Positions 14,261 to 59,839 of a stretch of 64,000 nucleotides of DNA are shown here, in pieces. The notes under the pieces are model-generated. The model saw nothing but the letters and a program-made list of their open reading frames with translations. It did not search any database and was not told the DNA's origin. The position numbers were made by a program, and so were the translations under genes. This DNA is from Fibrobacterota bacterium (lineage in GTDB: Bacteria; Fibrobacterota; Fibrobacteria; UBA11236). The stretch lies in NCBI GenBank assembly GCA_028287465.1, contig JAQBPO010000062.1, forward strand, positions 1-64,000. Direction: 5' to 3'. Numbering within the stretch: the first letter of the stretch is position 1; the number at the start of each line of letters is the position of its first letter.

Positions 14261-14327
14261 TGGTGAAATGGAATTCATCACTTTCGGTTCCGGGTCGGTG
14301 GACAAACCCGAGCCTCAGCCGTAGTTT
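14261..14327 (+). promoter_or_regulatory. Chitin-regulon promoter cassette, copy A
   Basis: Palindrome TGGTGAA (14261-14267), six-base spacer, TTCATCA (14274-14280), then 18 bp to TGGACA (-35, 14299-14304), then 17 bp to TAGTTT (-10, 14322-14327). Spacing is identical in five copies across the window. Predicted transcription start is near 14334, leaving a leader of ~147 nt before the ATG at 14481. Confidence 0.8.
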
Positions 14328-14333
14328 TGATTT

Positions 14334-14480
14334 TGCGGATTGCACCCACGCTTAACGCGGCAATCCGGTTTCACGGGCTGTGGGGCCCGACGGTCTGAAT
14401 CCCAGATACGTCCGGCTGAGAGAACGGTTCCTGAACCGTAAGTCTCCCCTATTGCCTTGGATGACGGGAACGGAGGAAAA
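14334..14480 (+). promoter_or_regulatory. Structured 5' leader with three hairpins
   Basis: Between the predicted start of transcription and the ribosome binding site GGAGG (14472-14476) there are three clean inverted repeats: CGGATTGC/GCAATCCG (14336-14367), CGGGC/GCCCG (14374-14389) and ACGGTT/AACCGT (14424-14439). No known riboswitch consensus was recognised. It may be an untranslated regulatory leader or simply a long UTR. Confidence 0.3.
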
Positions 14481-17400
14481 ATGGCGGCATTGAACGGCAG
14501 GTCAGGGACCAAGGACGGCGATAAAGCCGTGTTTTCCCGTATTCCGGCCGTGGATGGCGCCCAGGGTTCAGCGTCCTCGGGGATGGCGGCGGGAGAGCGT
14601 AACCGGACTGACGCTTTCGATTTGTGCCGCACCTGCGAGGACGCGCCTTCCTCCCATGTCGCCGATTCCCATGCGGAGTCCCGCGCGGGCGGGGCGATGG
14701 CCATGGCCTTGACCCTGGCCTTGGCGCTGCTGGCCGGGTCCGCTTCCGCCCAGGTGAAGCTGACCTTGGGAGGCGATTTGCCCGCCACCGGTCCCGGCAC
14801 CAAATACCCGACCCTGATGACCTGCAACGAGACCAACCTTCCCCAGCAGGTGGACGGATGGAAGTTCAAGACCAAGGACTTCGCCGGCTTTACGACCTGG
14901 ATGCCCAATCTGACCAAGAGCGGCACGGCTCCGGTGGAATACACCCAGAAGGTCCCCACCGAGGAACGCCAGATGCAGGCGGGCAATTGCCGCATCGCGC
15001 CGACCGATTATACCGGAACCCTGGCCGCGGGCCAGGACGCCACGCCCTTCGACCTGCAAGCCCTGATCAAGACCGGCTCCTGCACCGAAGTCCCTCCCTA
15101 TAAGGACGCGGACGGCCTGACCTGCGCGGAAATCGATGCCGTGAAGCCCGACTACGGCAGCCAGTGCATCATCGACAGCATCGGTTCCAACGGCGGGGAC
15201 AATTACGGCGGCTTCGTCTCCAGCTTCTACGGCCAGACCCAGATCCAGGCCGCGATCCCATCCAACTCCTTCCAGGTCAGCGGCGATGAAGTGCGCTGGA
15301 ACCCTTACGCGATGGGCCCCCAATACATGATGGCCCTGGGCATGGCCCAGGAAATCATGAACGTGGACATGCAGTTCCTGACCGCGATCGCGGGCAAGGA
15401 GACGGGCGCGGGCATCCAGAGCGTGGCCACGGGAGCGGTCCGGTCGGAACTGCCCGATTACCAGGACAACGGCACCTACAGCTATTGGCAGATCGAACAG
15501 GACACCTACGGCACCTATATCAAGGCCTATCCGCAATTCTTCCCCAAATACGGGCCTTGCGTTTCCAAATATCCGGACGTTACCTCGGCGATTTCCGCGG
15601 GCCATTGCGTGGACAGCTGGGGCACGGTCGCCAAGTTCTACATGCAGCCCGCCGGCAAGACCAAGATGACCCCCAATTCGCCCCAGATCACCAACGGCGC
15701 CTTGTCCTCCGCCATCGCCTGGTACGGCCTGTACGACGCCCTCTCCAACTCCACCGACCTTTGCTTCGTGGAGGCCATCAAGAACGGCGTGGACAAGCGC
15801 ATCGCCTTCGCGGCCATGATCGGAGGCTACAACCTCGGACGATACACGGACTTCGGCGGTCCCTTGAAGGACCCGAACCTGAAGAACGATCCCAATGCCT
15901 CGGCCAAGTTCGCCACCGGGAACAACAATTACCGCCCGGACATCTACCGTATCCTCGACAACCTGGTGGGCGCGTCCAAGAACTGCGCGAGCCGCAAGAT
16001 CTACGACACAACCATCACCCTGAACGAAATGCAACGCTTCCTCTTCGGCGGCAGCGTGACGGCCGGAACCGTGGCCGCCCAGGGCGACGGCGGCCTCATG
16101 CTCCACTTCCCCCTGACAACGGAAGAGCGCCAGGCGCTTTGGGACGACGTGACCTGCGCCTACAACAAGCTCAAGGGCAAAGCCCCCTCCACCATCGGCA
16201 AGGACGCGATCAGCTACCGTTATGACTACCTGACCCTGCTGCGCGTGGTCAAGAAGCACCTCCCCTTCCACATCAAGGATCGGAAAATCCCGGTCGAGCA
16301 CGACTTCCAATACGTGGTGGACACCTATAGCAAGAATCCCCAGACCTGCTCGGGCAAGAAAAAGGACGACGTCTATCCTTCCATGTCCATCACCTCCCCG
16401 GCCGCGAACTCCGTGGTCTCGCCCGTCATCGCGCCCGGCGCGAAGTTCGTATTCTCGGGCACGGACAATGTCGCCGTATCCAAGGCCGAATGGACCTTCG
16501 ACAAGAATTGGCTCGCCTGGAACCCGGCCACCAAGACCGCGGGCAACACGTACGAGTTCTCCATCTCCTGCGAGCGCCCGGATTATCCCAAGAAGAATTC
16601 CGCCGCTTCCCTTTGGGTGCGCACCACGGACGATTGCGGCAATTCCACGGTCCAGCAGTTCGACTTCCGGACCCATTCCACCGCCAATTGCGGAGATCCC
16701 CCCGTCCCCCCCCAGGTGGCCACCCCCTTGGCCACCCCTCCGGGCCGGGAATTCTCCGCACTCACCCCGGGAGTCAGGGTAACCCTCGACGATGCCACCT
16801 CCGGGGCATCCATCCTGTATACCCTCGACGGCTCGGATCCGGATTCCGTGGTGGGCGGCAAGACCGTTCAATACTCCGGACCCATCCTGATCACGGCCAC
16901 CACCGTCCTCAAGGCGCGCGGCGTCATGGACGGCATGAGCGCCAGCTCCATCATGACGGAAACCTATACCAAGGTCCAGCCCGGCAAGGTCGCGACCCCT
17001 ACGGCCACTCCGCCGGGCAAAACCTTCACGGGCAGCCTCTCGGTCATCCTGCAGACCGCGACGCCCGGGGCCACCATCTATTACACCCTGGATGGGACCA
17101 TCCCGGATTCCTCCGGAGCCGGGGCCAAGAAGCTGACCGCGCCCATCGTGCTCACGGCCGATGCCACCATCACCGCCATCGCGGTCAAGGACGGCATGTA
17201 CAGGAGCGATGTGATGGTGGAGAAGTATTCCAATATCCCTCCCGTGGCCGTGAAACAGGCCTGGTACCTCGACGAGAACGGCGACGGCCGCATCGAGAAG
17301 GCCATCGTGGAATTCGCGTCCGCCCTGCCCGCGGTCCCCGCCAAACTGGGCTTCAAGATCACGGACGAGAGCAATCAGGATATCGCGCGCAACGCCTCGG

Positions 17401-18389
17401 GGGCGGAAATCACCCTGGCCCCCGGGAATGCGGCCCGCGCCGTGGTCGTCTTCACGGAACCCTTTCCCCAGGGCGTCACCTCCCTCAAGAACGCCGCCGC
17501 TTCCGGCCAGACCTTCCACCAGGATGCCATCCCCCTGAACGACGGCGTCTTCGCCGTAGCAGACTCGGTCGCCCCCGTCATCGTCTCCGCCGAGGTCAAG
17601 GAACCGGGCGACGGCGCGGCGCTCAAGCGCGTGCTCATCACCTACTCCGAAGCGGTCGCGATCTCCGCCGGAGGGCAGCCCTTGACCTTCAAGCGCGAAA
17701 GCGCGGAGACTCCCGGTTCCTCCGTGATCCTGGCGAACGTCGAGAAGCTCTCCGAACGGGACTACGCCTTCCATGTCGACTCCAACTCGACCTTCTACCC
17801 CATCGTCGGCGACTCCGCCGCCATCACCGTCAATGGCCAGACGGCGGACGCGGGGGGAATGACCCCGAAGGCGAAGTTCTTCCGCGTGCTGAAGGGCGTG
17901 CCCCCCAAGGCCAAGCCCGTGAGCCTGAAGGTCACCTTCCCCAACGGCAGCCAATTGGATGCCTCCTCCGGTTCCGCGGCCGCCAATCGACCCGGCCTGG
18001 CCTTCATCCCGGTCGACAAGGATGGCAACGCCCTGGCGAAATGCCCCGGTTGCGTGGCCAAGGACAGCCGCGGTTACGTAGGACCGGTCTTCGTCATCTC
18101 CACGCCCGGCCCGGTCGATTACACCTTCAAGATCTTCAACAACTTCGGCGAATTCGTGATCGAAGGCAAGGGCAAGGTGGAATCGGGGGATCTGTCCCAA
18201 TTGAAACGCTCGGGCGGAATCAATTACGAGGCCCCGGTGGTTTGGACCGGCGCCACCCGTTCGGGCACGAAAGCCTCGACGGGGGCCTATATCCTGATAG
18301 CGACCTTCCTTTCCGAAAAGGACATGACCTCCGGCGCGGGTCCGGGCCAGTTCACGGAAAAGAAGGTCTTCGGCATGCTCCGCAACTGA
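14481..18389 (+). CDS. Large secreted protein: lysozyme-like N-terminal module, two CHB_HEX_C repeats, shared C-terminal module
   Basis: 1302 residues. Start ATG 14481 has a strong GGAGG site; the hydrophobic export segment (MAMALTLALALLAGSASAQ) begins only at ~residue 73, so either the n-region is unusually long or translation starts at 14697. Residues ~95-630 form a Cys-containing module with a pattern reminiscent of the lysozyme/lytic-transglycosylase fold: AIAGKETGAG with Glu307, YWQIEQDTYGTY, and AAMIGGYNLG. Residues ~746-830 and ~837-918 are chitobiase C-terminal (CHB_HEX_C_1) Ig-like repeats (SGASILYTLDGSDPDS; PGATIYYTLDGTIPDS). Residues ~920-1302 are a module shared with the proteins at 18425 and 23729, starting with YLDENGDGRIE and ending in an FlgD-Ig-like GTGAYI. 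Probably acts on or binds chitin or peptidoglycan outside the cell; activity is inferred only. First gene under promoter copy A. Confidence 0.75.
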   Translation: MAALNGRSGTKDGDKAVFSRIPAVDGAQGSASSGMAAGERNRTDAFDLCRTCEDAPSSHVADSHAESRAGGAMAMALTLALALLAGSASAQVKLTLGGDLPATGPGTKYPTLMTCNETNLPQQVDGWKFKTKDFAGFTTWMPNLTKSGTAPVEYTQKVPTEERQMQAGNCRIAPTDYTGTLAAGQDATPFDLQALIKTGSCTEVPPYKDADGLTCAEIDAVKPDYGSQCIIDSIGSNGGDNYGGFVSSFYGQTQIQAAIPSNSFQVSGDEVRWNPYAMGPQYMMALGMAQEIMNVDMQFLTAIAGKETGAGIQSVATGAVRSELPDYQDNGTYSYWQIEQDTYGTYIKAYPQFFPKYGPCVSKYPDVTSAISAGHCVDSWGTVAKFYMQPAGKTKMTPNSPQITNGALSSAIAWYGLYDALSNSTDLCFVEAIKNGVDKRIAFAAMIGGYNLGRYTDFGGPLKDPNLKNDPNASAKFATGNNNYRPDIYRILDNLVGASKNCASRKIYDTTITLNEMQRFLFGGSVTAGTVAAQGDGGLMLHFPLTTEERQALWDDVTCAYNKLKGKAPSTIGKDAISYRYDYLTLLRVVKKHLPFHIKDRKIPVEHDFQYVVDTYSKNPQTCSGKKKDDVYPSMSITSPAANSVVSPVIAPGAKFVFSGTDNVAVSKAEWTFDKNWLAWNPATKTAGNTYEFSISCERPDYPKKNSAASLWVRTTDDCGNSTVQQFDFRTHSTANCGDPPVPPQVATPLATPPGREFSALTPGVRVTLDDATSGASILYTLDGSDPDSVVGGKTVQYSGPILITATTVLKARGVMDGMSASSIMTETYTKVQPGKVATPTATPPGKTFTGSLSVILQTATPGATIYYTLDGTIPDSSGAGAKKLTAPIVLTADATITAIAVKDGMYRSDVMVEKYSNIPPVAVKQAWYLDENGDGRIEKAIVEFASALPAVPAKLGFKITDESNQDIARNASGAEITLAPGNAARAVVVFTEPFPQGVTSLKNAAASGQTFHQDAIPLNDGVFAVADSVAPVIVSAEVKEPGDGAALKRVLITYSEAVAISAGGQPLTFKRESAETPGSSVILANVEKLSERDYAFHVDSNSTFYPIVGDSAAITVNGQTADAGGMTPKAKFFRVLKGVPPKAKPVSLKVTFPNGSQLDASSGSAAANRPGLAFIPVDKDGNALAKCPGCVAKDSRGYVGPVFVISTPGPVDYTFKIFNNFGEFVIEGKGKVESGDLSQLKRSGGINYEAPVVWTGATRSGTKASTGAYILIATFLSEKDMTSGAGPGQFTEKKVFGMLRN

Positions 18390-18424: not shown

Positions 18425-21400
18425 ATGAAAAGTTTCCTGGGATTCAACATCCGGCTGCTGGCGGCCTTGCTCCTGGCCCTGGCGGCCGATGCTTCGGCCC
18501 TCAAGATCCACGTCAAGAACCCCTGGCCCGGCGTCCCCATGTGGAAGACCCTGAACGTGATCGGCGCGGTCATCGCCGGCCCTCCCGGCTCCCCCATGAC
18601 CGACGACGGCGACGGCTGGTACTCCATCACCATCGCGGATGCCCTGCCCCCCAACGGCACCTTTTACATCGTGATGTACTCCCCGGCCAGCTATGACGTC
18701 ACCCAGCCCGATTACGCTTCGCAGCAGGATTTCCGCCCGGGCGGAATCAGCAAAAGCGGACCGGAATTCGTCATCGGGGACATCCGCAATTACGGCGACG
18801 ATGTCTGGATCATCCCCGGCGGTCCGGGCAAGCCGCCTACCATCACCGATATCCCCCAGGCCAAGAAGGTAGCCTTCCTGTTCAACCCCTGGCCGGCCAA
18901 CGCACCCATGGACAAGGCCGGCGCGGCCGCGTCCTTCTCGGTCATGCACCAGGCTCCTGAGGCCAGCCGCTGCGGCTGGTACGGATCCTATTTCAACGCC
19001 GCGCCCTTCACCGTCTCCTTCAAGAGCATGTTCGGGACCGAGACGTACGGCATCGGCGGGATGGGGGACGCCAAGGCCATCGACCTGTCCTCCTATTTCG
19101 CCACCTCGGATACGGTCTGGTTGACGCCGGATCCCATTCCCGGCGGCCCGCCCAAGATCACCACGACCAAGCCCACGGGCGTGGTCGGCACCTGCTCCTT
19201 CAAGTTGGCGGTGGCGGTGCGCGATTTCTCCAAGGACCACCCGGATTTCGACGACGTCCAATTGGACAAGCATGACCTCGCCACCAAGGGCATGGTGCAG
19301 CCCACCTTGGATTCCGACAACAAGCCGGTAGCGAGCGCCAAGCCCTTCATGCAATCGGATTTCCCGAATTGGTTCCGGGACAAGAAGTCCGACCCCAATC
19401 CCAAACTGAACAATGTCACCTATTGCAAAGACCTGAACATGGCCAAGACCACCACCGGCCTTTGGGGTTACAATTCGCTCAAGACCGAAGCGAGCCATAG
19501 CTTCTTCCCTCTCGATGCGGCCAGCGACAACACCTTCGGCGAATGGGGAGCCAGCCAGTACCTGGACGGGACCGGAGTCGCCCACAATGACCCGACCGCG
19601 GGCAAGCACAACTTCAACTTCTGCATGGAAATGCATGCGAGCTTCAAGTACCAGAAGGGCCAGGAGTTCAGCTTCCTGGGCGATGACGATACCTGGGCCT
19701 TCATCAACAGGAAGCTGGCCTTGGATATCGGAGGCCCCCATCCGCCCGTCGCCGGCAAGATCAAGCTGGATACCATTCCCGGCCTGGTCGCGGGCACCGA
19801 TTACCCCTTCGATTTCTTCTTCTGCGAGCGCCAGCCGACCGGCTCCGATCTCGGGATCGAAACCTCGATCTTCTTCGAACAGCAGCAGACCGTGTTCGCC
19901 AAGCCCATACTCCTGCCCAACGGGGCCATCCGTTACGAGATCTACGAGATCACCTCCGGCGACGCGAGCTGCGGATCCGCCAAAGGCGGGGATACGGCAT
20001 TGGCCGAATCCGATTTCAGGTTGTCGGGCCCCTCGGTCAACCCCGCTGAACTGTTGGTGGCCGGAACCACCAAATACGGCGGCGTTACGGTGAATACCAA
20101 GGGAGACCAGGTGACGGTGGATACTTCCAAGGTCACGGGCCTGCGCCCGGGCGTGTATACCATCACCTACGAGACGACCACGTCGAAGCGCGGTTCCACC
20201 CTCCAGTTCACGGTCTCCGGGAACTACGCCATCGAGTACGCGGCCAAGCCTCCGGTCAATGAAATCCTGAACACCCTGGTCCCCGTCACCGTGCAGGCCA
20301 CCCTCGCCGGCGTGGCGGACAAGCGCGCGGAGACCTTCCACTTCACGCCCCAGGCCGGCCTGAAGATCTATTCGGACTCGACCCTGACCAAGCCCATCGC
20401 CGCGGGCGCCGACCTGGCGACGGATGCCGCTACGGGAACCCTCAAGGTCTACGTCACCTCGCCCACCGCCGGCACCTATAAGCTGGACCTCATCGGCGGG
20501 ATCGCCAAAAACGTCCTGATGGATACCTATAACAACCTGACCTTTTTCGAGCAGCCCAAGGTGGCCAAGCCCGTCGCCTTCCCGCCGTCCCAGATCTTCA
20601 TCCTTCCCATCAGCGTCACCCTGTCCACTTCCACCGTGGGCGCGACCATCCTGTACACCGCGGACGGCACCGACCCCGACACCGTGGCCGGCGGCGCCAC
20701 CAAGGCCTATACCGGCGCCCTGCCCCTGACCGCCACAACCAAAATCAAGGCCATCGCGGTCAAGGCCGGCTGGATCAAGAGCGACATCCTCTCCGAGGAA
20801 TACGTCTATATGGCTCCGCTCGGGATCAAGAAGGCCTACTACCAGGACCTCAACGGCGACGGCAAGATCGAAACCGTAATCCTCGAGTTCGAAAAGGACA
20901 TCCCCAATACCCCGGACAAGCTCTCCTTCAAGATCACCGACGCGGCCGGCAAGAGCAATGACAAGACCGCGGCCAAGGCGGAAATCGCCTATGCCGCCGG
21001 CTCAAAATCCCGCGTGGTCGTGACCCTGGCCTCGCCTTTCGACTACGGCGTCACTTCGGTGGGCAACCGCGATCTTTCCGGCCAGATCTTCAAGCAGGAC
21101 AATATCCCCAGCCTGGAAGCCTTCTTCCCGGTGGACGATTCCGTGGCCCCGGTCATCGCCAAGGGCACGGTCATGGAACCGGACAGCCTCCAGATCTACA
21201 AGCGCATCCTGATTTCCCTGAGCGAAGGCGTTACCCTGGCGGGACAGCCCTTCCCGACGGCCAGCCAGACCGCTCTGATATTCAAGCGCGATGGCGCGGA
21301 AATCGCCCCGGCCGATATCAAGATCCACCACATCGAGAAGACGGGCGATCATGACTACGCCGTCTACATCGACACCTCCTCCAACATCTTCCCCATCGTG

Positions 21401-22018
21401 GGGGATTCCGTGGCGGTCAACGTGAACGGCGAGATCAAGGACCTGGCCGGCAATGCGCCCTCCAGGAAGACCTTCCTCCGCCTGGACGGCATCGTGCCCA
21501 AGGCCAAGCCCATGGACCTCTACGTCACCTTCCCCAACTCCCAGAAGGACAAGCCCTCGGGAGGCCTGCTGCCCCACGACAATACCGTGTTCATCCCCGT
21601 CGATCTGAGCGGCCTGCCCTTGCCCGGGGAGGCCAAGGACGGCAAATGTCCCGGGTCCTGTTATTCGGGCGATAATTCGAATTTCGTGGGTCCGGTATTC
21701 CATATAGTCACTCCCGGTCCGGTATCCTACGAGTTCCGCATCTTCACCAACCACGGGGAATTCGTGACCATGGGCAAGGGCGCGGTGACCACGGCGGACC
21801 TGCCCAAGCTGCTCAAGAAGAACGATGCCTCCGGGGTGAAGTACGTGGCGCGCATCGTATGGACGGGCCAGACTGAGAAGGGCTCCAAGGCCGGTACGGG
21901 GGCCTATATCCTGCAGACCATCCTGACGGGGTCGAAGGACCCGAAGTCCGGGGCCGCTCCGGGCAAGGATACCAAGCGGGTGACCTTCGGGTTGCTGCGC
22001 AACTTCAACGGGTCCTGA
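18425..22018 (+). CDS. Fibro-slime domain protein with CHB_HEX_C repeat and shared C-terminal module
   Basis: 1197 residues. Signal peptide MKSFLGFNIRLLAALLLALAADASA. Two N-terminal repeats each open with an NPWP motif (~32 and ~154). Residues ~260-485 are a fibro-slime domain (AVAVRDFSKDHPDF, FSFLGDDDTWAFINRKLALD, GGPH, DFFFCERQPTGSDLGIETS), a PA14-like fold abundant in Fibrobacter surface adhesion proteins. A CHB_HEX_C repeat lies at ~714-795 (VGATILYTADGTDPDT). The C-terminal ~400 residues are the module shared with the proteins at 14481 and 23729 (YYQDLNGDGKIE ... GTGAYILQTIL). Likely surface-exposed polysaccharide binding. Start ATG 18425 lies 35 nt after the upstream stop with no terminator, so both genes are one operon. 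Confidence 0.85.
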   Translation: MKSFLGFNIRLLAALLLALAADASALKIHVKNPWPGVPMWKTLNVIGAVIAGPPGSPMTDDGDGWYSITIADALPPNGTFYIVMYSPASYDVTQPDYASQQDFRPGGISKSGPEFVIGDIRNYGDDVWIIPGGPGKPPTITDIPQAKKVAFLFNPWPANAPMDKAGAAASFSVMHQAPEASRCGWYGSYFNAAPFTVSFKSMFGTETYGIGGMGDAKAIDLSSYFATSDTVWLTPDPIPGGPPKITTTKPTGVVGTCSFKLAVAVRDFSKDHPDFDDVQLDKHDLATKGMVQPTLDSDNKPVASAKPFMQSDFPNWFRDKKSDPNPKLNNVTYCKDLNMAKTTTGLWGYNSLKTEASHSFFPLDAASDNTFGEWGASQYLDGTGVAHNDPTAGKHNFNFCMEMHASFKYQKGQEFSFLGDDDTWAFINRKLALDIGGPHPPVAGKIKLDTIPGLVAGTDYPFDFFFCERQPTGSDLGIETSIFFEQQQTVFAKPILLPNGAIRYEIYEITSGDASCGSAKGGDTALAESDFRLSGPSVNPAELLVAGTTKYGGVTVNTKGDQVTVDTSKVTGLRPGVYTITYETTTSKRGSTLQFTVSGNYAIEYAAKPPVNEILNTLVPVTVQATLAGVADKRAETFHFTPQAGLKIYSDSTLTKPIAAGADLATDAATGTLKVYVTSPTAGTYKLDLIGGIAKNVLMDTYNNLTFFEQPKVAKPVAFPPSQIFILPISVTLSTSTVGATILYTADGTDPDTVAGGATKAYTGALPLTATTKIKAIAVKAGWIKSDILSEEYVYMAPLGIKKAYYQDLNGDGKIETVILEFEKDIPNTPDKLSFKITDAAGKSNDKTAAKAEIAYAAGSKSRVVVTLASPFDYGVTSVGNRDLSGQIFKQDNIPSLEAFFPVDDSVAPVIAKGTVMEPDSLQIYKRILISLSEGVTLAGQPFPTASQTALIFKRDGAEIAPADIKIHHIEKTGDHDYAVYIDTSSNIFPIVGDSVAVNVNGEIKDLAGNAPSRKTFLRLDGIVPKAKPMDLYVTFPNSQKDKPSGGLLPHDNTVFIPVDLSGLPLPGEAKDGKCPGSCYSGDNSNFVGPVFHIVTPGPVSYEFRIFTNHGEFVTMGKGAVTTADLPKLLKKNDASGVKYVARIVWTGQTEKGSKAGTGAYILQTILTGSKDPKSGAAPGKDTKRVTFGLLRNFNGS

Positions 22019-23624: not shown

Positions 23625-23691
23625 TGGTGAAAAACGTTTCATCACTTCTTTCCCCGGGTCCATAGCCAAAGCCCCCCCTTGGCCATAGTTT
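23625..23691 (+). promoter_or_regulatory. Chitin-regulon promoter cassette, copy B
   Basis: TGGTGAA (23625-23631), six-base spacer, TTCATCA (23638-23644), 18 bp, TAGCCA at the -35 position (23663-23668; the most divergent -35 of the five), 17 bp, TAGTTT (-10, 23686-23691). Predicted start near 23698 gives a ~31-nt leader before ATG 23729, which has GGAG at 23721. Confidence 0.75.
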
Positions 23692-32446: not shown

Positions 32447-32533
32447 CCGGACCAAGGGAAATCACCGCAATCAGCGGAATCGCCGCGCGTGGCCCCAGGC
32501 GCGCAAGGCGGCCCGCATGCAACGGAGACAATC

Positions 32534-35582: not shown

Positions 35583-35584
35583 CC

Positions 35585-48771: not shown

Positions 48772-48838
48772 TGGTGAAGTGAAATTCATCACTTTCGCAT
48801 TCCGGTCCATGGACAAACAGGTTCTTTGGGCATAGGTT
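48772..48838 (+). promoter_or_regulatory. Chitin-regulon promoter cassette, copy D
   Basis: TGGTGAA (48772-48778), six-base spacer, TTCATCA (48785-48791), 18 bp, TGGACA (-35, 48810-48815), 17 bp, TAGGTT (-10, 48833-48838). Predicted start near 48845, leader ~75 nt. Drives the six-gene operon 48920-59689. Confidence 0.82.
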
Positions 48839-49963: not shown

Positions 49964-50004
49964 TCCTCTCGGATTGACCTGTCCGGCGCGGCGGCGCGCC
50001 GTTG

Positions 50005-50035
50005 GGGGAGAAGGGGTTTCTCTTCTCCCTTTTTC
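50005..50035 (+). terminator. Intra-operon terminator or attenuating hairpin
   Basis: Stem GGGAGAAG / CTTCTCCC with an eight-base loop followed by TTTTT, 42 nt after the 48920 gene and 42 nt before the next start. Partial read-through would set the ratio of the first gene to the barrel genes. Confidence 0.7.
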
Positions 50036-50076
50036 ATTCGAACGTTCTTTTCCGAAAAGCCGAGACACGAGGAACA

Positions 50077-50970: not shown

Positions 50971-53372
50971 GAATGCGCGGAATGAAAGCGATGCTCCCCG
51001 GAGCCCCGGCGCTCGGAGCGATGGCGCTCTTGGCCGCGGCGGCCTGGACCGGCGCCATGGCCGGCGAAACCGGAGCCCTTGCGGACGCAATGGCGTCGGA
51101 AAGCGATCTGGACTCGGCGGCCATCAAGGAGAGGATCTCGGACATGAACCTGTCCAAGTCCCTGGACAAGGTGGCCTTCTCCGGCCTCATCTACAACCGG
51201 GCCTTCAACCATCAATACCTGGAGTTCCCGGCCAACCTCGGATCGGACGCGTCCGGCACCTCCTATGACGCCAATTTCACCTTGAAGGTGAGCATCAATG
51301 CCAGCCCGCTCATCAAGGTCTGGTCCATGCTCAGCTTCGGCTACGATTTCGGCGGGAATTTCCTGAACCAGAAGGCCTTCACCCATCCGCGCACTTCGGA
51401 TCTCCCCGGGTTCGGCCCCGTCCAGGATACGGTCTACAGCGATATGGGCCGCGTGCGCCCGGAACAGGACAAGAACCGCGAAGCCGCCCGGGTCTTCGAG
51501 GATCTGATGGCGGGCGTGGACATCCGCACCGAGGCCGTGGACGCCAACGTGCGCGCCGGCGGGACCCTGTGGATGCAGGGCAGCCCCCTGACCATCTGGA
51601 AGCGCGATCCGCGCCAGCATCCCGCCTGGTATTTCGAATCCTACGAACCGGAGCAATCCTCCGCGCAGTACTACACCCAGAAATTCTACTACCGCCGCAA
51701 CGATCTGGGCCGCGCCAGCTGGCCCAAGAAGGCCTTCGGCGGCATGGAAGTGGATGCCTTCAAGCTTCCCGCCGATATGGGCTTCCAGTTCGATTTCGCC
51801 CAGCCTTCCAACATGCTGCCTTCCAAGACCGACGGCAACACCAACTCCCATGCGGGCGACGCCGAGGCCCTGAATTCCATCAACAGCCTGGGGCAACTCT
51901 ACTTCGGCCGCCTCACGCGGCGGGCCCTCTTCAAGGACGTGACCGGCGGCCTCAACCTGCTCTGGGTCGAGATCCCGAAGGACATCGTCAATCAGAAGGT
52001 GCTCTCCCCGAATCCGGTCCAAGGGTTCAAGTACCAGTTCCGGGACGGCGGGCAGCCCTTCTATACCAACCCCAGGGTATTCTCGCTCGACTCGCGCGGC
52101 AACCTCGCTCCCGGCATGTTCTGGCAGTCGGATATCGCCCTCAGCCTGGAAGACACCGTCAAATACCTGCCCTTCATCAACGGCGCGGACACGGTGTACG
52201 ACGGGCGCAGCAGCGTCACGCGCACCCAGAGCAAGCCCGCCCCGGCTGCCTACGCCAAGCTCAACACCAGCGGCAGCCTGCCCATGGAGACCGAGGTCTT
52301 CTTCGCGGCCAAGGATTTCTGGTCCCCTTACGCCGTCACGGAATACGCCGTGCCCGTGCACCGGGACGAGATGAAGCTGGGCACGGGCTCCTTCAGCTAC
52401 CAATCCAACCTGGTGGGCCTCAATTGGAAGGTTTCCCCCAAGGTGACCACGGGATTCCTGTCCCTGACCCTGGGACAGCACGTGCAGGCGGAAAAGGGCA
52501 AGGACCTGCTCCGCTTCCAGCATACCGTCAACGGCCGCGAAGCCTGGTATTCAACCACCTCCTGGTCCCGCACCGAGCCGGGCCGCATGCTGGACGAAGG
52601 CAGCCCCTACGGGAATCCCCGCTACGAGGGCCGCGTCGGCGAGATCCATCCGGGCAACGACATCCTCCATCTGCACAACCAGCCGGGCGGCCTGCACGGG
52701 GACGATCTCGAAGTGTGGGAGGAGTTCGCGGCCTATGACAATGCGGCCCAGGCCAATGCCGGCCAGGTCCCGCAAAACCAGAAATACTCCTTCTCCTCCG
52801 CCCTGGATTGGGGATACAACGTAGGCTCCCTCATCGGGTACGAACGCCCGTTCATGGTGGCCCTCTACAGTTCGGTGAATACGATTTCCAAGACCCTGAC
52901 CGGTCCCCTCAACAACGGCAACACCCTCCTATGGTCGGGCATGGCCCGCTTCGAGCCCGCCATCTCCCTGAGCCCCACCTTCCAGATGCTCGGGCTGATC
53001 GGCCTTGAGACCTGGAAGTCGGACAAGGCATACCGAAACAAGCTCGCGAACAAGCAGGGCGTGAACGACGGGTTGACCGGATACCAGCTCGTGGTAGGGT
53101 CCGACGGCAAGCCCGTCATCTACGACAACATCCATTATTACGAGCCCATCTCCAGCTACGCCGGCGCGTCCCTGCCGTCGCCCCTGGTCGACGCGGAACT
53201 CTCGCCCATCGATTACATGCAAATGGCCTATGGCCTGGGTTTCGACTGGGACTTCAGCGAACGCGCCGGACTCCATGTCCGCTGCAAGTACGCCACCCAT
53301 GAGGATAAGAATCTGCCGTCCAACAATTGGAAGGGCGCCTTCGTGTTCGGGGAAACTAAAATATGGTTCTGA
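50967..53372 (+). CDS. Large outer-membrane beta-barrel protein 1 of chitin operon
   Basis: 801 residues. Signal peptide (ALGAMALLAAAAWTGAMA). The body has many amphipathic beta-strands with aromatic girdles and ends in a C-terminal Phe (ETKIWF), typical of outer-membrane barrels recognised by BamA. No TonB box, plug domain or SusD homologue could be seen. GTG 50967 has AAGGAGG with seven-base spacing and overlaps the previous stop; ATG 50973 is the alternative. Not assignable to a named family. Operon position between CBM-like proteins and further barrels suggests binding or uptake of chitooligosaccharides (inference). Confidence 0.7.
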   Translation: MRMRGMKAMLPGAPALGAMALLAAAAWTGAMAGETGALADAMASESDLDSAAIKERISDMNLSKSLDKVAFSGLIYNRAFNHQYLEFPANLGSDASGTSYDANFTLKVSINASPLIKVWSMLSFGYDFGGNFLNQKAFTHPRTSDLPGFGPVQDTVYSDMGRVRPEQDKNREAARVFEDLMAGVDIRTEAVDANVRAGGTLWMQGSPLTIWKRDPRQHPAWYFESYEPEQSSAQYYTQKFYYRRNDLGRASWPKKAFGGMEVDAFKLPADMGFQFDFAQPSNMLPSKTDGNTNSHAGDAEALNSINSLGQLYFGRLTRRALFKDVTGGLNLLWVEIPKDIVNQKVLSPNPVQGFKYQFRDGGQPFYTNPRVFSLDSRGNLAPGMFWQSDIALSLEDTVKYLPFINGADTVYDGRSSVTRTQSKPAPAAYAKLNTSGSLPMETEVFFAAKDFWSPYAVTEYAVPVHRDEMKLGTGSFSYQSNLVGLNWKVSPKVTTGFLSLTLGQHVQAEKGKDLLRFQHTVNGREAWYSTTSWSRTEPGRMLDEGSPYGNPRYEGRVGEIHPGNDILHLHNQPGGLHGDDLEVWEEFAAYDNAAQANAGQVPQNQKYSFSSALDWGYNVGSLIGYERPFMVALYSSVNTISKTLTGPLNNGNTLLWSGMARFEPAISLSPTFQMLGLIGLETWKSDKAYRNKLANKQGVNDGLTGYQLVVGSDGKPVIYDNIHYYEPISSYAGASLPSPLVDAELSPIDYMQMAYGLGFDWDFSERAGLHVRCKYATHEDKNLPSNNWKGAFVFGETKIWF

Positions 53373-55447
53373 AGCACGCTTCCATCGCCCTCGCCGCGCT
53401 CATCGCCGGCGGTTCGAATCCCACCTCCGCCCAGACGCTCCGGGAGCGCATGGACGATACCTACGAACGCGTGCTCTCCAAGCACGGCGTGGACGTGGGC
53501 GGCCGGGTCAATTCCGAGTACTTCCATTCCGATCTCTCAGGATCGGCCAAGGCGGACACCAATTACGCCTTCGAGACCACCCAATTCACGTCGTTCGACC
53601 TGGACATGCAATACCGGGCCTTCGACAACATCACCGCCCAGGCCTCCCTGCGTTTCTACCAGGATTGGCAGACGTTCTTCGCCACCCGCAGCCGCATCCT
53701 CGCGGCGCGCTGGCTCAGCGTGGACGGCAACATCGCCAGGACCCTGGGCTTCAACGCCGGGGATTTCCGCCAGAAGTATTCCGAGCTGACCTTGTGGTCG
53801 CCGGAGCTGGACCTCGTCTACGAGCCCATGATCTTCTCGCGCATGCGCCGGGACCTCATGGAAGAACAGCACATCGCCGATAACGATCGCATCCTCCAGG
53901 GCGGCAACCTCAATTTCGCGCGCCGGTTCGACGGCGCCTTGAGCGAATTGCGCCTGGACGCGTTCGGTTCGCGCATCCGCCGCGGCGAGTTCCTGGACCC
54001 GGACGGTTACCAGGGATTCCACCTGGCCAAATCGGACATGGACCGGTTCGCCTTCGGCGCCAATGGAGAGGCGTTCCTGGCCAAGAACGTATTCCTGGGC
54101 GGTTCCTACCTGGCCATCCTGGACGACCGCGACAGCTACCGGCAGACCGCGCACAATGCCGCCTACATTCAAGGCCTTGTGGACGTGGGCGCCCCGCCTC
54201 CCGCTGGATGGTCCCTGAACGATCGCGACTCCGTGGTCGCCCGCGATATCCGCGTGGTTTCGGGCCGCGCGGGCGCGGACGTGGCGGGATTCCTGGGCAA
54301 CCCGGATCTCACCCTGAACCTGACCGCCGAATACGCCCTCTCCCAGGAGGCCAACCGGTTCGCATGGCATTTCAAGAAGGACGCGGCCGGCAAGGACGTA
54401 TCCTTCGAGTCGAATGCCCCGGGCAAGGACGGCAAGGCCCTTTTCGCGGAACTCGAGGCCGGTTACGCCGGACGGGACAGCGGTTTCGGCGTCAACATCG
54501 CCCTGGGCTACCTGAACAATGAAGCGGCTTTCCTCAACCCTCTCGCCCAGAGCCCCACCTTCATCGCCGCACGCATCATGAACACGGAAAACGATTACGC
54601 GGACGGGCGGCTCTATTCCACTTTCGACGCCTTGAACAACGGGGTGTACAAGTTCAGCGCCTCCCAGAAGGTGGTCGGGGCCAACGAATCCTACCATCAG
54701 GCCCCGCTTTCCAAGACCTCGTACAACAACGGGATCCTCTCCCCCGAGGACCTTTCCGCCTACCATGGGGACCCCGTTCTGCAACTGGTCCTTCCCAACG
54801 GCAACGCCACCCCCAACCGCACGGGCCCCAAGGCCCGCCTTACGGGCCATTGGGCCGGCTCCCTGCACGCCACCGTCGACATCGCGATGCTCAAGGAACT
54901 CGAAGGCGGGATCGTCGACGGTACGGTCGCACCCCTGGCCACTTTCACCCAGATGGGCGGAGGCCTGCTCGTTGAGGCCGGCAAGATGATGGGCAGGCCC
55001 CAGGCATTGGATTTCCAGGCCAGCTTCGTCCGCAGCGCTTCCAAGCGGGATCGCGTTTCCAAGGACCTTACGGAACCGGAAATCACCGCGGACCTCCTGA
55101 TGGCGGGTTTCCGGTGGCAGTTCTTCACCAAGTGGGGCCTGCTCGGCGGGTACCAGCAGGCCAAGGTGGCCTCCCCCATGCGCCTCAGCGAGATAGGCGG
55201 AGCCGACGCCAAGGCCCATTCCTACCAATACACGCTCGATGAAACCCAGAAGCATTTCCGCGCGGGCGTCGAATACGCCGTGACCCGGGACGCCTACCTG
55301 CTCCTTTCGGGCGGTTTGGTTTCCGTGGATCGCACTCGGATCAACCAGGGGACCGCGGAAAACGCGGAAGGCCCCATCGCGGCGCGCAACGTCTCTTCGG
55401 ATTTCACCCAGACGCTTTCCCAAGTCGTCATCAAGGTCAGGTTTTAG
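53363..55447 (+). CDS. Outer-membrane beta-barrel protein 2 of chitin operon
   Basis: 694 residues. Signal peptide MVLKHASIALAALIAGGSNPTSAQ. Strand-rich barrel ending in VVIKVRF. It is homologous to the next gene: shared stretches include ARW(L/F)S, GDFRxKxSxLTLxSPxLDLxYEPxIF, xGxATPNRxG, LKELEGx and GGGxxVEAGKxxG. ATG 53363 overlaps the previous gene by 10 nt. Family not recognised; presumed transport or binding role in the chitin operon. Confidence 0.7.
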   Translation: MVLKHASIALAALIAGGSNPTSAQTLRERMDDTYERVLSKHGVDVGGRVNSEYFHSDLSGSAKADTNYAFETTQFTSFDLDMQYRAFDNITAQASLRFYQDWQTFFATRSRILAARWLSVDGNIARTLGFNAGDFRQKYSELTLWSPELDLVYEPMIFSRMRRDLMEEQHIADNDRILQGGNLNFARRFDGALSELRLDAFGSRIRRGEFLDPDGYQGFHLAKSDMDRFAFGANGEAFLAKNVFLGGSYLAILDDRDSYRQTAHNAAYIQGLVDVGAPPPAGWSLNDRDSVVARDIRVVSGRAGADVAGFLGNPDLTLNLTAEYALSQEANRFAWHFKKDAAGKDVSFESNAPGKDGKALFAELEAGYAGRDSGFGVNIALGYLNNEAAFLNPLAQSPTFIAARIMNTENDYADGRLYSTFDALNNGVYKFSASQKVVGANESYHQAPLSKTSYNNGILSPEDLSAYHGDPVLQLVLPNGNATPNRTGPKARLTGHWAGSLHATVDIAMLKELEGGIVDGTVAPLATFTQMGGGLLVEAGKMMGRPQALDFQASFVRSASKRDRVSKDLTEPEITADLLMAGFRWQFFTKWGLLGGYQQAKVASPMRLSEIGGADAKAHSYQYTLDETQKHFRAGVEYAVTRDAYLLLSGGLVSVDRTRINQGTAENAEGPIAARNVSSDFTQTLSQVVIKVRF

Positions 55448-55448
55448 G

Positions 55449-57734
55449 ATGGAACCGGTGTCGAACCAGCTTAGGACCGGAATCGCGGCATGGATCGCGA
55501 CGGTCATGATCACGGCCTCTTTCACTGCACTCACGGCAACGGCCCAGACCGCCGGTGCCAATGTCCCCGCCAAGGACGCGGCGGATTCTTCCGCGGCTCC
55601 TGCGGCAGCCTCCGCCCCTGCGGCCGGCCATGCGCCGGACACGTCCGCGGCGGAATCGGAATCAGTGGAAACCGCCTCCGAAGCCCTTCCGGCCCCCGCG
55701 CCGGCAACGGTCGCGGCCTCGTCCGTCCCCTCGGCGTCGCCGGAACCCTCCTTGAAGCAGAAGGTCGCGGGATGGGAAAGGAAGGAACTCGGGATCAGCG
55801 TTTCCGGCCAGGCCTCCTCGCGGTTCCTCCAGTCGGCGATTTCCGGGGACAGCGCCCGGATCACCCAGCCAGGCCACGAGAACCACGCGTTCTCCCGGGC
55901 GGACGTCGAGTTCCTGGCCCGTCCCAGCGCCACGACCTCGGGCAAGGTCCTGTTCCGCATCCACCAGGACTGGTCCAACTATTATGATGAAGGCCCCAAT
56001 CCCCTCCTGGCCCGCTGGTTCAGCTATGACGGCACCATCGTCGACGGCAAGGTCGCCTTCGACATCGGGGATTTCCGCGCCAAGTTCTCGCCGCTCACCT
56101 TGTATTCGCCCGGGCTCGATCTGCTCTATGAACCGGAAATCTTCACGGGTCGCCGCAGGATGGCCATGGATGAATGGCACCTGACCGACGAGAATCTCCT
56201 GCCCCTCCAAGGCTTGCACGCCGTGTACACCCAGGGCCTCACCCAAAACGCCGGCATCGAGGCCGGCGTGGCCGGAGCCCGTCTGCGCACCGGCGGAGCC
56301 TCCCAGTTCTCCTGGGTCTACTGGACCGACGACGTCGAGAAGCTGATGGCCTCCGGATACGCCAAGGTGAACCTTTTCCAGGCCCTGGAAGTCGGCGCCA
56401 CCCGGATCCAAATCGTGGACCCCGTGCCCACCAGCCGTTCCATCAACAATGAATACAACGCCCTCACCCCTTCCGCCATCTTCGAGAACGTCACCGTGAA
56501 CGCGGTCAACCTCGGGCTGGACGGCAAGCGTTTCCTCGGGAACGGCCCGGTGTCCCTGCGCCTGGACGGCGAACTGGCCATGTCCGGCTACCGCAACGCC
56601 CACGACGTCGCCGACTCCGTCGGGACCCGCTCGGTGATCAAGGTGCTGCAGAACGGGAGCCTGGACACGGTCGAGCAGACCCGCTACGCCTTGAAGCTCG
56701 TCAAGGACAAGGAGATCAAGGGACAGGCCTTGCGCGCCTCCTTGCACGCCGGTTACCGCGAAACGGAGGCGGGGCCCTTCTCCCTGGCCCTGAACGCCTC
56801 CTTCCTGAAGAACGACAAGGATTACGTCAACGACGTGGCCCAGTCCCCGTCCTTCATCGGCACCCGCATCTTCAATTCCGCCAACGGCGTGGGCGGATTC
56901 CAGAGGGGTTACAACAGCTTCGACGCCATGTACGACCATGTATACACCGTCGACCCGGTCACGAACATCAATACTTCGGAATTCTGGTTCCAGGACACCA
57001 AGATCTACAACGGCACCAACAATTGGTACCGCGCCGCGCAATTCAAGAACTCCTACCGCAACAGCGTGACCACCAAATCCGAACGGGATTTCCTGGCCGG
57101 AGCGATGGATCCCCACCTGCAATTGCTTTATCCGTTCGGCCCCGCCACCCCCAACCGCCAGGGTGTGGACGCCAGCCTCAAGGCCTCGGCCCTGGAAGGG
57201 ATGGTGGAGGCCACCGTCCTGTTCGCGGCGCTCAAGGAACTGGAAGGATTCAAGACCGATCCCGCGACCGCCACGGAAGCCGCGACCCTCGGCCGCATGG
57301 GCGGAGGCGCCAAGGTCGAAGCCGGCAAACTGCTCGGGCTGAAGAACCGCATCACCGCGAGCGCCGGTTACGTCGCGGACTCCCGCAAGAACCCGGCCTA
57401 CAACGTAAAGGATACGTCCTTCGCCGAGTGGACCTTCAAGTCCGCCATGCTCAGCGCCGGGGTGTACGCCGGCATCTGGAAAGGCCTGGCGGTGCTGGCC
57501 GGCTATCAGCAAATCAAGTCCAATCCCTTTTCCGGAGTCTCGGGATCCGCGACCGCGAAAAGCGTCAACGAAGCGGATTTGAAGCAGAGCATCTGGTCCC
57601 TGGGCCTGGAGTACCGTATCGCCCCCGGCGCCTACGTCACCGGTGAATACGGCATGATCGGTTTCGACGAGGCCAAGTCCGCCACCGAATACAGCCAGGC
57701 CGTTTCCAGCCTCAACCTGATCGTAGGCTTCTGA
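55449..57734 (+). CDS. Outer-membrane beta-barrel protein 3 of chitin operon, paralogue of barrel 2
   Basis: 761 residues. Signal peptide ending near TATAQ (~33). An Ala/Pro/Ser-rich linker (~34-100) precedes the barrel, which ends in SSLNLIVGF. The barrel shares blocks with the protein at 53363 (RWFSYDG, GDFRAKFSPLTLYSPGLDLLYEP in part, PATPNRQG, KELEGF, GGGAKVEAGKLLG), so the two arose by tandem duplication. The added linker may cross the periplasm or contact peptidoglycan. The stop overlaps the GH20 start as TGATG. Confidence 0.7.
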   Translation: MEPVSNQLRTGIAAWIATVMITASFTALTATAQTAGANVPAKDAADSSAAPAAASAPAAGHAPDTSAAESESVETASEALPAPAPATVAASSVPSASPEPSLKQKVAGWERKELGISVSGQASSRFLQSAISGDSARITQPGHENHAFSRADVEFLARPSATTSGKVLFRIHQDWSNYYDEGPNPLLARWFSYDGTIVDGKVAFDIGDFRAKFSPLTLYSPGLDLLYEPEIFTGRRRMAMDEWHLTDENLLPLQGLHAVYTQGLTQNAGIEAGVAGARLRTGGASQFSWVYWTDDVEKLMASGYAKVNLFQALEVGATRIQIVDPVPTSRSINNEYNALTPSAIFENVTVNAVNLGLDGKRFLGNGPVSLRLDGELAMSGYRNAHDVADSVGTRSVIKVLQNGSLDTVEQTRYALKLVKDKEIKGQALRASLHAGYRETEAGPFSLALNASFLKNDKDYVNDVAQSPSFIGTRIFNSANGVGGFQRGYNSFDAMYDHVYTVDPVTNINTSEFWFQDTKIYNGTNNWYRAAQFKNSYRNSVTTKSERDFLAGAMDPHLQLLYPFGPATPNRQGVDASLKASALEGMVEATVLFAALKELEGFKTDPATATEAATLGRMGGGAKVEAGKLLGLKNRITASAGYVADSRKNPAYNVKDTSFAEWTFKSAMLSAGVYAGIWKGLAVLAGYQQIKSNPFSGVSGSATAKSVNEADLKQSIWSLGLEYRIAPGAYVTGEYGMIGFDEAKSATEYSQAVSSLNLIVGF

Positions 57735-59689
57735 TGGCCGGCAAATCCGCACCCAAGGGCCGCAAGGCCCCGCGCGCCGCCGCGCCCGCCGCGTCCGCTT
57801 CTTACTCTTCCGACGCCTCTTACCTCGACTTCAAACCGTTCAAGCTGCCCGCAGCCCCCTGGTCCAAGGACCTGGCGCGCCTGCTGCCCGATGCCTTTTC
57901 CCTGACCCGGGGCCAACCGGTCCGCCTCAACCCCGGCCTGGAAGAGGGCTATGCCATAGGCATGGAGGATGACGGCCTCCATATCGCCTACCGGTCCACG
58001 GACGATCTCATTCTGGCCTTGGGCGATATCGTTTCCGGAACGGTGCCCGCCGACGGATCCAAATCCCTCCCGTACGATTTCCGCGGCATCATGCTGGACG
58101 TCAGCCGGAACGCCGTCGCGCGCACGGGGTTCCTCAAGGATCGCATCGCCCAATTGTCGCTCCTCGGCCTCAACCGCTTCTGCCTCTATAGCGAGGACGT
58201 ATTTCCCGTCCCGGGCGAGCCGCTTTTCGGCTATGCGCGGGGATGCTACGCGGCCGCGGACATCAAGGATCTGGTCGGGCACGCGAAGCGGTTCGGCGTG
58301 GAACTGTTCCCGTGCATCCAGACCCTGGGGCACATGGAGCATATCCTCAAGTACCCGCATTACTTCCCGCTCAAGGACAACGACTACGTCTACAACGTCT
58401 ACGCGAAGGATCTCTACGCCTTCATCGAGAAGACCATCGACGCGGCCGTCGCTCCCTACGACACCAAGGTGATCCACATCGGCATGGACGAGACCTTCGG
58501 CCTGGGGCGCGGGCTCGCCTTCAAGGAGAACGAAGGAATCAACCCGCGGGCCTTGTACGTAGAGCATGTACGCAAGGTCGTGGAAATCTGCCGCAAGAAG
58601 GGCCTGCAACCCGTCATGTGGGGGGACATCGTCCTGGGCCACGGCGGCGAACAGGCGATGGGCGGGGACGAGGCCGGACGCCTGCCCAAGGACGTGGTGA
58701 TGAATTATTGGCAGTACGCCTGGTGCGACGCCGACAAGTACGACCACGACCTGGCCGATTTCAAGAAGCTGGGATACGCGCCTTACGTTTCGCCCGGCGC
58801 CTGGAGCTGGTCCCGTTTCTTCCCCGCCTATTACAAGGCGGAAGCCAACATCGACTCCCTTCTCGAGGCGGGCAAGCGCGCCGGCGTACCCGGCGCCCTC
58901 AACACCCATTGGGGCGACGACGGCCACGAATGCTTCTTCGACTACAACCTTCCCGCCCATGCGTTCTTCCTGGCGCATTGCACCGAGAGGGAGAACGTCC
59001 TGGAAACCGCCAAGCTGCGCTTCCGCGCCGTCTTCGGCGAGGATTTCGACGCGGTGCGTTCCACGGAAAAGATCGACCTGGCCGGCACAACGCCGGACGC
59101 CCTCATCCCCGCCAATATCGGGAAATGCTTTTTCTACGACGACCCGGCGCAGGGCCTTTTCAGCGGCCTGCCCTTCGTGAAGCCGGCCGGGAACTTCTAC
59201 GCCAAGACGGCCAAGGAGATGGGCGCCCATGCCAAGCGCGAGGGCATGTTCCAACCCCTGTTCCGGTTCGCCGAAGCCTTCTGCGATTTCCTCGCGGTGA
59301 AGGCGGACCTGCGCCGCAAGGCCGTGGCCGCCTACCGGAAAAAGGACAAGCGGGCCCTCAAGGCGCTCTTAGGCGACATCGCCAAGGCGGAAACCCGCCT
59401 GGCCAAGGTCCGCGTCCTGTACCGCGCCTACTGGCTCCAGGAACGGAGTCCGTTCGGCCTGGAAATCGTGGACGGGCGCATGGGAATCCTGGCCTCGCGC
59501 CTCGACCATCTCCGGCATATCCTGACCGAACACCTGGCGGGACGCTACCCGAAGGTGGAGGAATTCGAGTTCAAGCACTTCTCCATGTTCCATCAATCCC
59601 GCAGCCCGGATTATCAGCCCTCGATCTGGCCGGAATTCATGCTCCACTATTCCGCCTTGGGAAGCCGCAATACCATCAAATGGTGGTGA
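57734..59689 (+). CDS. Cytoplasmic GH20 beta-N-acetylhexosaminidase
   Basis: 651 residues. A ~25-residue Lys/Ala/Pro-rich N-terminus without a hydrophobic core argues against export. The GH20 barrel spans ~115-480: FRGIMLDVSRN, FPCIQTLGHMEHIL, the catalytic pair Asp252-Glu253 in HIGMDETFGLG, and WGDIVLGHGG. The enzyme uses substrate-assisted catalysis to release GlcNAc from the non-reducing end of chitooligosaccharides. The C-terminal ~150 residues are helical and charged. Last gene of the copy-D operon, coupled to the barrel gene; it fits processing of imported chitobiose. Confidence 0.92.
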   Translation: MAGKSAPKGRKAPRAAAPAASASYSSDASYLDFKPFKLPAAPWSKDLARLLPDAFSLTRGQPVRLNPGLEEGYAIGMEDDGLHIAYRSTDDLILALGDIVSGTVPADGSKSLPYDFRGIMLDVSRNAVARTGFLKDRIAQLSLLGLNRFCLYSEDVFPVPGEPLFGYARGCYAAADIKDLVGHAKRFGVELFPCIQTLGHMEHILKYPHYFPLKDNDYVYNVYAKDLYAFIEKTIDAAVAPYDTKVIHIGMDETFGLGRGLAFKENEGINPRALYVEHVRKVVEICRKKGLQPVMWGDIVLGHGGEQAMGGDEAGRLPKDVVMNYWQYAWCDADKYDHDLADFKKLGYAPYVSPGAWSWSRFFPAYYKAEANIDSLLEAGKRAGVPGALNTHWGDDGHECFFDYNLPAHAFFLAHCTERENVLETAKLRFRAVFGEDFDAVRSTEKIDLAGTTPDALIPANIGKCFFYDDPAQGLFSGLPFVKPAGNFYAKTAKEMGAHAKREGMFQPLFRFAEAFCDFLAVKADLRRKAVAAYRKKDKRALKALLGDIAKAETRLAKVRVLYRAYWLQERSPFGLEIVDGRMGILASRLDHLRHILTEHLAGRYPKVEEFEFKHFSMFHQSRSPDYQPSIWPEFMLHYSALGSRNTIKWW

Positions 59690-59772
59690 AGAGCGCCTCC
59701 TTCCGGGAGGATTCTTCCCGGATCCAAAAACCGCAATTGGCCCTTCCCGACCCCATGGAATCAGGGCGCGAG

Positions 59773-59839
59773 TGGTGAACTGAACTTCATCACTTCTTTG
59801 GGCGCATCGCTGGACAAACCCCCGGATCGCGCATAGGTT
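59773..59839 (+). promoter_or_regulatory. Chitin-regulon promoter cassette, copy E
   Basis: TGGTGAA (59773-59779), six-base spacer, TTCATCA (59786-59792), 18 bp, TGGACA (-35, 59811-59816), 17 bp, TAGGTT (-10, 59834-59839). Predicted start near 59846. Drives the two GH18 genes that follow. Confidence 0.82.

Follow-up and report, generated by a model that had tools for sequence, protein, structure and literature searches.

Several operons for chitin use lie within one 45-kb locus in the genome of a Fibrobacterota bacterium, and the same promoter element is found in front of five transcription units there. Which protein reads this element, and does it bind the units into one regulon? The window analysed here is the first 64 kb of a 189-kb contig (C100); the genome is 5.82 Mb in 100 contigs. 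A preliminary description of the window reported five copies of a cassette, consisting of the palindrome TGGTGAA-N6-TTCATCA followed by a -35-like and a -10-like box, and took them to define a chitin regulon. The protein encoded at 30306-31133, which belongs to the DUF4423/TIGR02147 family, is probably the reader of the cassettes: an autoregulated one-component class I activator which would control the chitin locus through all five. The evidence is comparative throughout. It draws on a set of 167 Fibrobacterota genomes, and the rows of the family-wide set of regulators are related to one another.

The cassette and its distribution

All five palindromes are exact and lie on one strand, and the spacings of 6, 18 and 17 bp are the same in 5/5 cassettes, as had been described. 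The operators and promoters are as follows.

14261-14280, forward strand: operator of unit 1, TGGTGAAATGGAATTCATCA, then CTT; orthologues in L061 and L068
14299-14327, forward strand: promoter of unit 1, TGGACA-N17-TAGTTT
23625-23644, forward strand: operator of unit 2, exact palindrome
23663-23691, forward strand: promoter of unit 2, TAGCCA (degenerate -35 box)-N17-TAGTTT; the orthologues in both other species have TGGACA
30232-30251, forward strand: operator of unit 3 (the regulator's own promoter), exact palindrome
30270-30298, forward strand: promoter of unit 3, TGGACA-N17-TAAGTT; GTG start codon 7 nt past the -10 box
48772-48791, forward strand: operator of unit 4, exact palindrome
48810-48838, forward strand: promoter of unit 4, TGGACA-N17-TAGGTT
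59773-59792, forward strand: operator of unit 5, exact palindrome
59811-59839, forward strand: promoter of unit 5, TGGACA-N17-TAGGTT

The palindrome is slightly asymmetric (TGGTGAA versus TGATGAA), and its orientation to the promoter is constant. The operator centre lies 51 bp upstream of the TAnnTT -10 box in all five cassettes; here and below, the distance is measured from the operator centre to the first base of the box. Two details of the preliminary description need amending. The TGGACA-like -35 box holds for four copies but not for the one at 23625, and the spacers, which had been called unconserved, do differ among units except for CTT after the palindrome (15/15 cassettes, three species) and AA after TGGACA (at least 80% of these cassettes).

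The cassette is confined to the locus. A scan of the window at up to 3 mismatches gave 12 matches (the five sites on both strands and two others), against a mean of 2.91 and a largest value of 8 in 100 shuffles of the window. Across the genome, TGRTGAA-N6-TTCAYCA has no match outside these five places, and the reversed control has 0 matches; a search for the operator with CTT and TGGACAAA, at up to 3 mismatches, likewise returns the five cassettes only. The operator with CTT alone, at the same tolerance, picks up the five exact copies, of which two are matched on the opposite strand as well, and seven further places at 2-3 mismatches (control 2). Many copies in front of unrelated genes would speak against a regulon; the whole-genome scan shows none beyond the locus.

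Comparison with other members of the genus shows that the cassette is conserved. The full form is found in three species: the source genome, G157 with 5 copies, and G159 with 4 exact copies plus a fifth that precedes a GH18 gene and has one mismatch. In both congeners having the locus, none of the five units has lost it, so that 15 cassettes can be compared. Their operator arms are the same in 14 cases, CTT is present in 15 and TGGACA in 13, and the -10 boxes read TAGTTT (6), TAGGTT (6) or TAAGTT (3). Within units, agreement between species is 95-100% for the operator arms and 100% for the -10 bases; the 60 bp upstream of the cassette agree at 31-64% in an ungapped comparison. Of six genus members, three combine a close regulator orthologue with the cassettes and GH20, and the other three lack the whole set. 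In the latter (G155, G156 and G158; 90-98% complete) there is neither a cassette nor a GH20 match, the best regulator homologue is too distant for a close orthologue (40-43%), and homologues of the importer binding protein reach only 30%; G158 has one bare palindrome from which the boxes are absent. The restriction of 5/5 genomic copies to the locus, the retention of the cassette by each unit in both locus-bearing congeners, and its absence from the three congeners that have no GH20 gene all bear out the claim of one regulon. The word 'chitin' is apt in that one site precedes several chitin-use operons and occurs nowhere else in the genome, and it is drawn from the domains of the genes.

The proposed regulator and operators in the DUF4423 family

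Among the scanned proteins of the units, a match to a likely-regulator family is found only at 30306-31133. Residues 1-269 match TIGR02147 (Fsuc_second) at 274.2 bits (cut-off 50) and residues 102-267 match PF14394 (DUF4423) at 119.4 bits (cut-off 30), so that the protein belongs to the family by curated score. NCBIfam lists TIGR02147 as a paralogous family and Pfam lists PF14394 as a domain of unknown function. A Pfam scan to E = 1 found no GntR, ROK or cyclic AMP-binding domain in the regulator, and DUF4423 alone was above cut-off. There are 52 DUF4423 matches in the source genome, two of them partial, and 142/167 Fibrobacterota genomes match the regulator at E <= 1e-40.

The predicted structure (predicted local distance difference test, pLDDT, 84.3; predicted template modelling score, pTM, 0.55) suggests an N-terminal XRE-like helix-turn-helix domain followed by a winged-helix-like part (about residues 108-185), with modest fold scores. 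Residues 8-90 align with HigA at Z 9.2 (root-mean-square deviation 2.6, 75 aligned), a value which helical models can reach without kinship; the winged-helix part gives structural Z scores up to 8.8, modest for a helical model. A Foldseek search with the model gave no match at E <= 0.001, and profile matches are weak (transcriptional regulator, E 0.019; CI repressor, 0.13; C.BclI, 0.76). The link between operator and regulator does not rest on the fold.

It comes from the upstream regions of homologous genes. When the phylum was searched with the regulator, the six genomes with the highest scores from outside the order included four with a homologue beside TGRTGAA-N6-TTCAYCA. These homologues (G021, 55%; G016, 53%; G020, 52%; G023, 51%) are all from outside the class; each has the palindrome before its own gene, beginning 82-87 bp before the start codon. 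The G034 homologue (54%) has a palindrome with one mismatch, and the two closest homologues in G154 (59% and 56%) have degenerate palindromes with 2 and 1 mismatches. The bare palindrome is found in 38/167 Fibrobacterota genomes. The sites before the DUF4423 homologues in G016, G020, G021 and G023 rule out that all palindromes outside the genus are due to chance; the remaining ones, mostly without a -10 box at the right distance, are taken as chance. At L048:749 and L049:1501 (G092 and G093, from genus group g9, which holds Fibrobacter), TGGTGAA-N6-TTCACCA is followed by TAAGTT at 60 bp and lies in front of a gene whose product looks secreted; the site may be a genuine target or due to chance.

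G154, which belongs to another family, has 4 exact palindromes, 3 of them with a box at 50-51 bp. The boxed palindromes precede a CHB_HEX_C protein, a LamG protein and no convincing gene, and neither protein has a chitinase domain. The idea that the regulon is chitin-specific across the phylum is unsupported, since these operators precede secreted proteins without chitinase domains. A second DUF4423 paralogue in G154 (56% identical) has its own operator, TGAGGAA-N6-KTCACCA, in the form TGAGGAAGTAAATKTCACCA, three times (L132:4766, 9237 and 12201, on G154:C40). Each copy lies 50-51 bp before a -10 box and one precedes a GSDH-domain protein; this is apparently a sister regulon with an altered half-site.

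Upstream regions were collected for 132 DUF4423 genes, 131 of them with at least 150 bp. The source genome contributed 49/131 (50 of its 52 matches were fetched), and the others were chosen roughly by falling similarity to the unit 3 regulator. TG..GA-N8-TC..CA is present in 19/131 regions, against a mean of 0.18 and a maximum of 1 in 100 shuffled sets; nine other gaps (3 to 12) between the same half-sites occur in 0-2 regions each. When GTTGA-N8-TCAAC, TGGAC-N6-GTCCA and GTTTAC-N4-GTAAAC are counted as well, an operator of one of the four patterns is found in 42/131 regions. The GTTTAC pattern is seen in the source genome at L023, L089 and L090, where it is centred 48-49 bp before a TAnnTT box; the three paralogues concerned are related to each other.

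Comparison of the regulators shows that the type of operator is tied to the DUF4423 lineage and to the recognition helix. On a tree of the 132 regulators, operator class needs 7 changes (the minimum is 6; shuffled labels need 23.7), as counted over 43 labelled rows (L104 labelled by hand) with the 89 unlabelled rows left aside. DSS with Q49 is found in 9/9 TGRTGAA rows, three of which are the orthologues from congeners; D-x-G is found in 16/16 GTTGA rows, and D-x-S with L, I or M at position 49 in 9/9 TGGAC rows. In a looser test, GTTG half-sites are present in 19/37 D-x-G rows and in 1/94 others, with a p value of 8e-12 which is overstated because the rows are related. The regulators of Fibrobacter, which were not used in forming the code, have DPG; among 35 such rows, which are closely related, 14 have a GTTGT-type palindrome at a permitted distance from a TAnnTT box (12 at 50 or 51 bp, 2 at 58 bp). 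In the predicted model the code residues fall on helix 41-48, the third helix of the XRE-like domain. L207 and its relatives, with D-x-S-H helices, may form a further class with GTGGGCA-type half-sites (TGTGGGCATTTCAGCCCACG in L207).

Promoter geometry and proposed mode of action

Across the family, the -10 box is found at two preferred distances from the operator. Thirty TATATT boxes are located 36-81 bp downstream of an operator centre, and 28 of them fall at 48-51 or 58-61 bp (about 0.3 expected): 16 in the nearer interval and 12 in the farther (0.2 and 0.1 expected), with 2 elsewhere (1.7 expected). The less strict TA..TT gives 25, 12 and 10 (2.3, 1.5 and 14.5 expected). A scan for symmetry only, made from 52 TATATT boxes (7-N6-7, at least 6/7 pairs), peaks at 49-50 and 59-60 bp and nowhere else; the symmetric share is 5.8% at 49, 13.5% at 50, 3.8% at 59 and 11.5% at 60, versus a mean of 0.8% over 25-95. 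Pooled over 49-51 and 59-61, 20/52 boxes have a symmetric site, versus 7/208 when the intervals are slid by 5 or 15 bp. For 279 other TATATT boxes (L031-L080 and L131-L140) the share is 0% at 50 and 60, at most 1.1% (at 51) and 0.2% on average.

As a rule, transcription starts about 12 bp past the first base of the -10 box. By this rule, the two distances would put the operator centres near -62 and -72, which are the class I positions of CRP. The class I arrangement (an operator upstream of the -35 box, near -62 or -72 and in helical phase) is found here relative to predicted starts. Of the 36 DUF4423 genes that have both an operator and a phased -10 box, 20 have a start codon no more than 12 nt past the box, so that their mRNAs are probably leaderless; that of the unit 3 regulator probably is too.

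These comparisons suggest the following mechanism. A dimer of the DUF4423/TIGR02147 protein would bind TGGTGAA-N6-TTCATCA(CTT), a site centred some 63 bp upstream of the start of transcription, and would recruit polymerase to a poor promoter of the TGGACA/TAnnTT form. It would switch on its own operon and the four other units together, and the set under its control would comprise chitinases, a hexosaminidase, surface binding proteins and an oligosaccharide importer, the last within the regulator's own operon. The signal would come from chitin oligomers or N-acetylglucosamine (GlcNAc), perhaps by way of a co-transcribed lipoprotein. Binding itself, activation over repression and the nature of the signal we infer from sequence comparison.

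The direction of control is the point at which another reading has most to offer. The protein could bind the operators and repress, or act both ways, with chitin oligomers relieving repression; its predicted N-terminal fold resembles, at modest scores, those of HigA and lambda-type repressors, and autoregulation is common among repressors. However, 18 bp separate the end of the operator from the -35 box, and the promoter itself is left uncovered. The -10 boxes are poor ones (TAGKTT/TAAGTT), and across the family the spacing between operator and -10 box takes two values a helical turn apart (about 50 or 60 bp), which fits contact with polymerase and argues against repression. Repression is accordingly considered unlikely. 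It is also conceivable that another, unlinked regulator binds the palindrome and that the DUF4423 gene is one target among others, as protein and site are joined by comparison; but DUF4423 homologues from other families have this palindrome upstream too, and the half-site class shifts with DUF4423 lineage and helix, which leaves this reading very improbable. That all copies lie within 45 kb would suit a local repeat spread by duplication of a promoter segment, with no dedicated regulator. The spacers between the boxes differ among units, though, and the boxes have stayed fixed over three species despite drifting flanks, so that this origin deserves hardly any credence.

Activation by the DUF4423 protein thus remains the preferred reading, and several observations weigh against it. 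The G031 homologue (53%, among the six best outside the order) has a GTTGA-type site instead. No pattern of the four fits 89/131 of the upstream regions, and among the source-genome paralogues examined 44/49 fit none and 5 fit; a grammar-free palindrome scan is mildly enriched, with 17/131 regions beating all 15 shuffles where about 8 are expected. The half-site classes were named after some sequences had been seen, in rows that are related, and the operator-plus-box rule is also passed by wrong-way readings (L036, L039, L063 and L132). Support from the fold is modest, and two GH18 genes within the locus have no cassette. Some of the non-fitting regions have GTTG half-sites at other gaps, or other palindromes.

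Gene content and relation to known systems

The genes of the five units, and the two GH18 genes that have no cassette, are listed here.

14457-18389, forward strand: unit 1 gene a, CHB_HEX_C / Fn3_assoc; probably secreted (signal-like stretch by eye); open reading frame, true start not fixed
18425-22018, forward strand: unit 1 gene b, fibro-slime (TIGR02148) / PA14 / CHB_HEX_C
23729-27577, forward strand: unit 2 gene a, CHB_HEX_C protein, probably secreted
27577-30138, forward strand: unit 2 gene b, glucosamine-6-phosphate deaminase-like / PIG-L-like, scores under curated cut-offs
30306-31133, forward strand: unit 3 regulator, DUF4423 / TIGR02147, proposed operator binder
31130-32446, forward strand: unit 3 ETTNG lipoprotein, overlapping the regulator's stop codon; CarboxypepD_reg-like, below cut-off; candidate sensor partner
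32489-34618, forward strand: unit 3 SBP_bac_5 solute-binding protein of an Opp-type ATP-binding cassette (ABC) importer
34620-38395, forward strand: unit 3, remainder of the importer (two permeases and two oligo_HPY ATPases)
44102-44995, forward strand: GH18 gene without cassette, inside the locus
47451-48737, reverse strand: GH18 gene without cassette, inside the locus and divergent from unit 4
48920-59689, forward strand: unit 4, with a weak sorting-domain match, a CBM30-like match, three large proteins and GH20
57734-59689, forward strand: unit 4 GH20 with Glyco_H_20C_C, domain match
59850-62469, forward strand: unit 5, a pair of GH18 genes (59850-61139 and 61195-62469), domain matches

Most of the contents given in the preliminary description (GH18, GH20, CHB_HEX_C, fibro-slime, ABC importer and regulator) are matched by domain. 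The NagB and PIG-L assignments are weaker: both matches are present but lie beneath the curated cut-offs (179 bits against 384 for the NagB-like match). The 'barrels' of unit 4 are three large proteins without any Pfam match.

The lipoprotein is a recurrent neighbour of these regulators. An ETTNG-like lipoprotein is found no more than about 420 nt downstream of the regulator in 26/130 DUF4423 cases, and in 10/13 homologues that are at least 50% identical to the unit 3 regulator; an eleventh was seen by eye. Two partner lipoproteins from other genomes have LamG and DUF2341 domains. Sequence searches found no solved relative of the lipoprotein, and its structure prediction has a mean pLDDT of 47 with three sequences, which is too poor for a fold search. 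The lipoprotein could sense the polymer at the cell surface, although this role is a guess.

Literature searches, whose coverage mostly excluded subscription papers, found no operator, target or mode of action for TIGR02147/DUF4423 and no mention of TIGR02147; in the partial texts covered, DUF4423 appears only as a row in a Bdellovibrio proteome table. Titles on Fibrobacter transcription factors and operators (with the beginnings of abstracts), and titles on sigma factors and start sites, held nothing on the subject, and no title on palindromic-motif chitin regulons concerned Fibrobacterota. The genome paper of Fibrobacter succinogenes S85 treats the regulation of cellulase genes as an unanswered question and reports few regulators nearby (PMC3079729). 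A 2016 survey of the phylum confines the use of chitin hydrolysis products to Chitinivibrionia (PMC4704652). The source genome is in the same class as Fibrobacter, and it may be an exception because GH20, a NagB-like protein and an importer are present.

To our knowledge, this is the first operator logic for the DUF4423/TIGR02147 family. It gives the family a DNA target, a position and a mode of action that can be put to the test, and it would make anonymous DUF4423 genes a handle for predicting co-regulated secreted enzymes. A wider proposal is offered tentatively, as a possibility that falls somewhat short of an expectation. DUF4423/TIGR02147 proteins may be the polysaccharide regulators still missing for Fibrobacterota. 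A genome would have up to dozens of these paralogues, autoregulated class I activators that are often leaderless. Each would recognise its own palindrome at about -62 or -72 through a simple helix code, and many would be paired with a surface ETTNG lipoprotein as sensor of the corresponding polymer. The chitin locus would then be the first such regulon resolved.

DasR and NagC coordinate chitinases with the uptake of chitin sugars. The same is described for NagR and for ChiS/SlmA. NagR/YvoA and DasR (GntR/HutC), NagC (ROK), and ChiS and SlmA of Vibrio are proteins unrelated to the regulator described here. The XRE-type controllers C.AhdI and C.BclI, as well as HigA and lambda repressor, may resemble its N-terminal domain, at modest scores, and C proteins activate their own gene; unlike C.AhdI and C.BclI, the regulator has a second, winged-helix-like domain in its predicted model, and its operators lie further upstream. 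The nearest parallel in promoter layout is with class I activators of the CRP type, which share the palindrome near -62 or -72, the one-turn steps and the poor promoter. The regulator differs from these in belonging to another family, with no match to a cyclic AMP-binding domain, and in that its gene is often leaderless.

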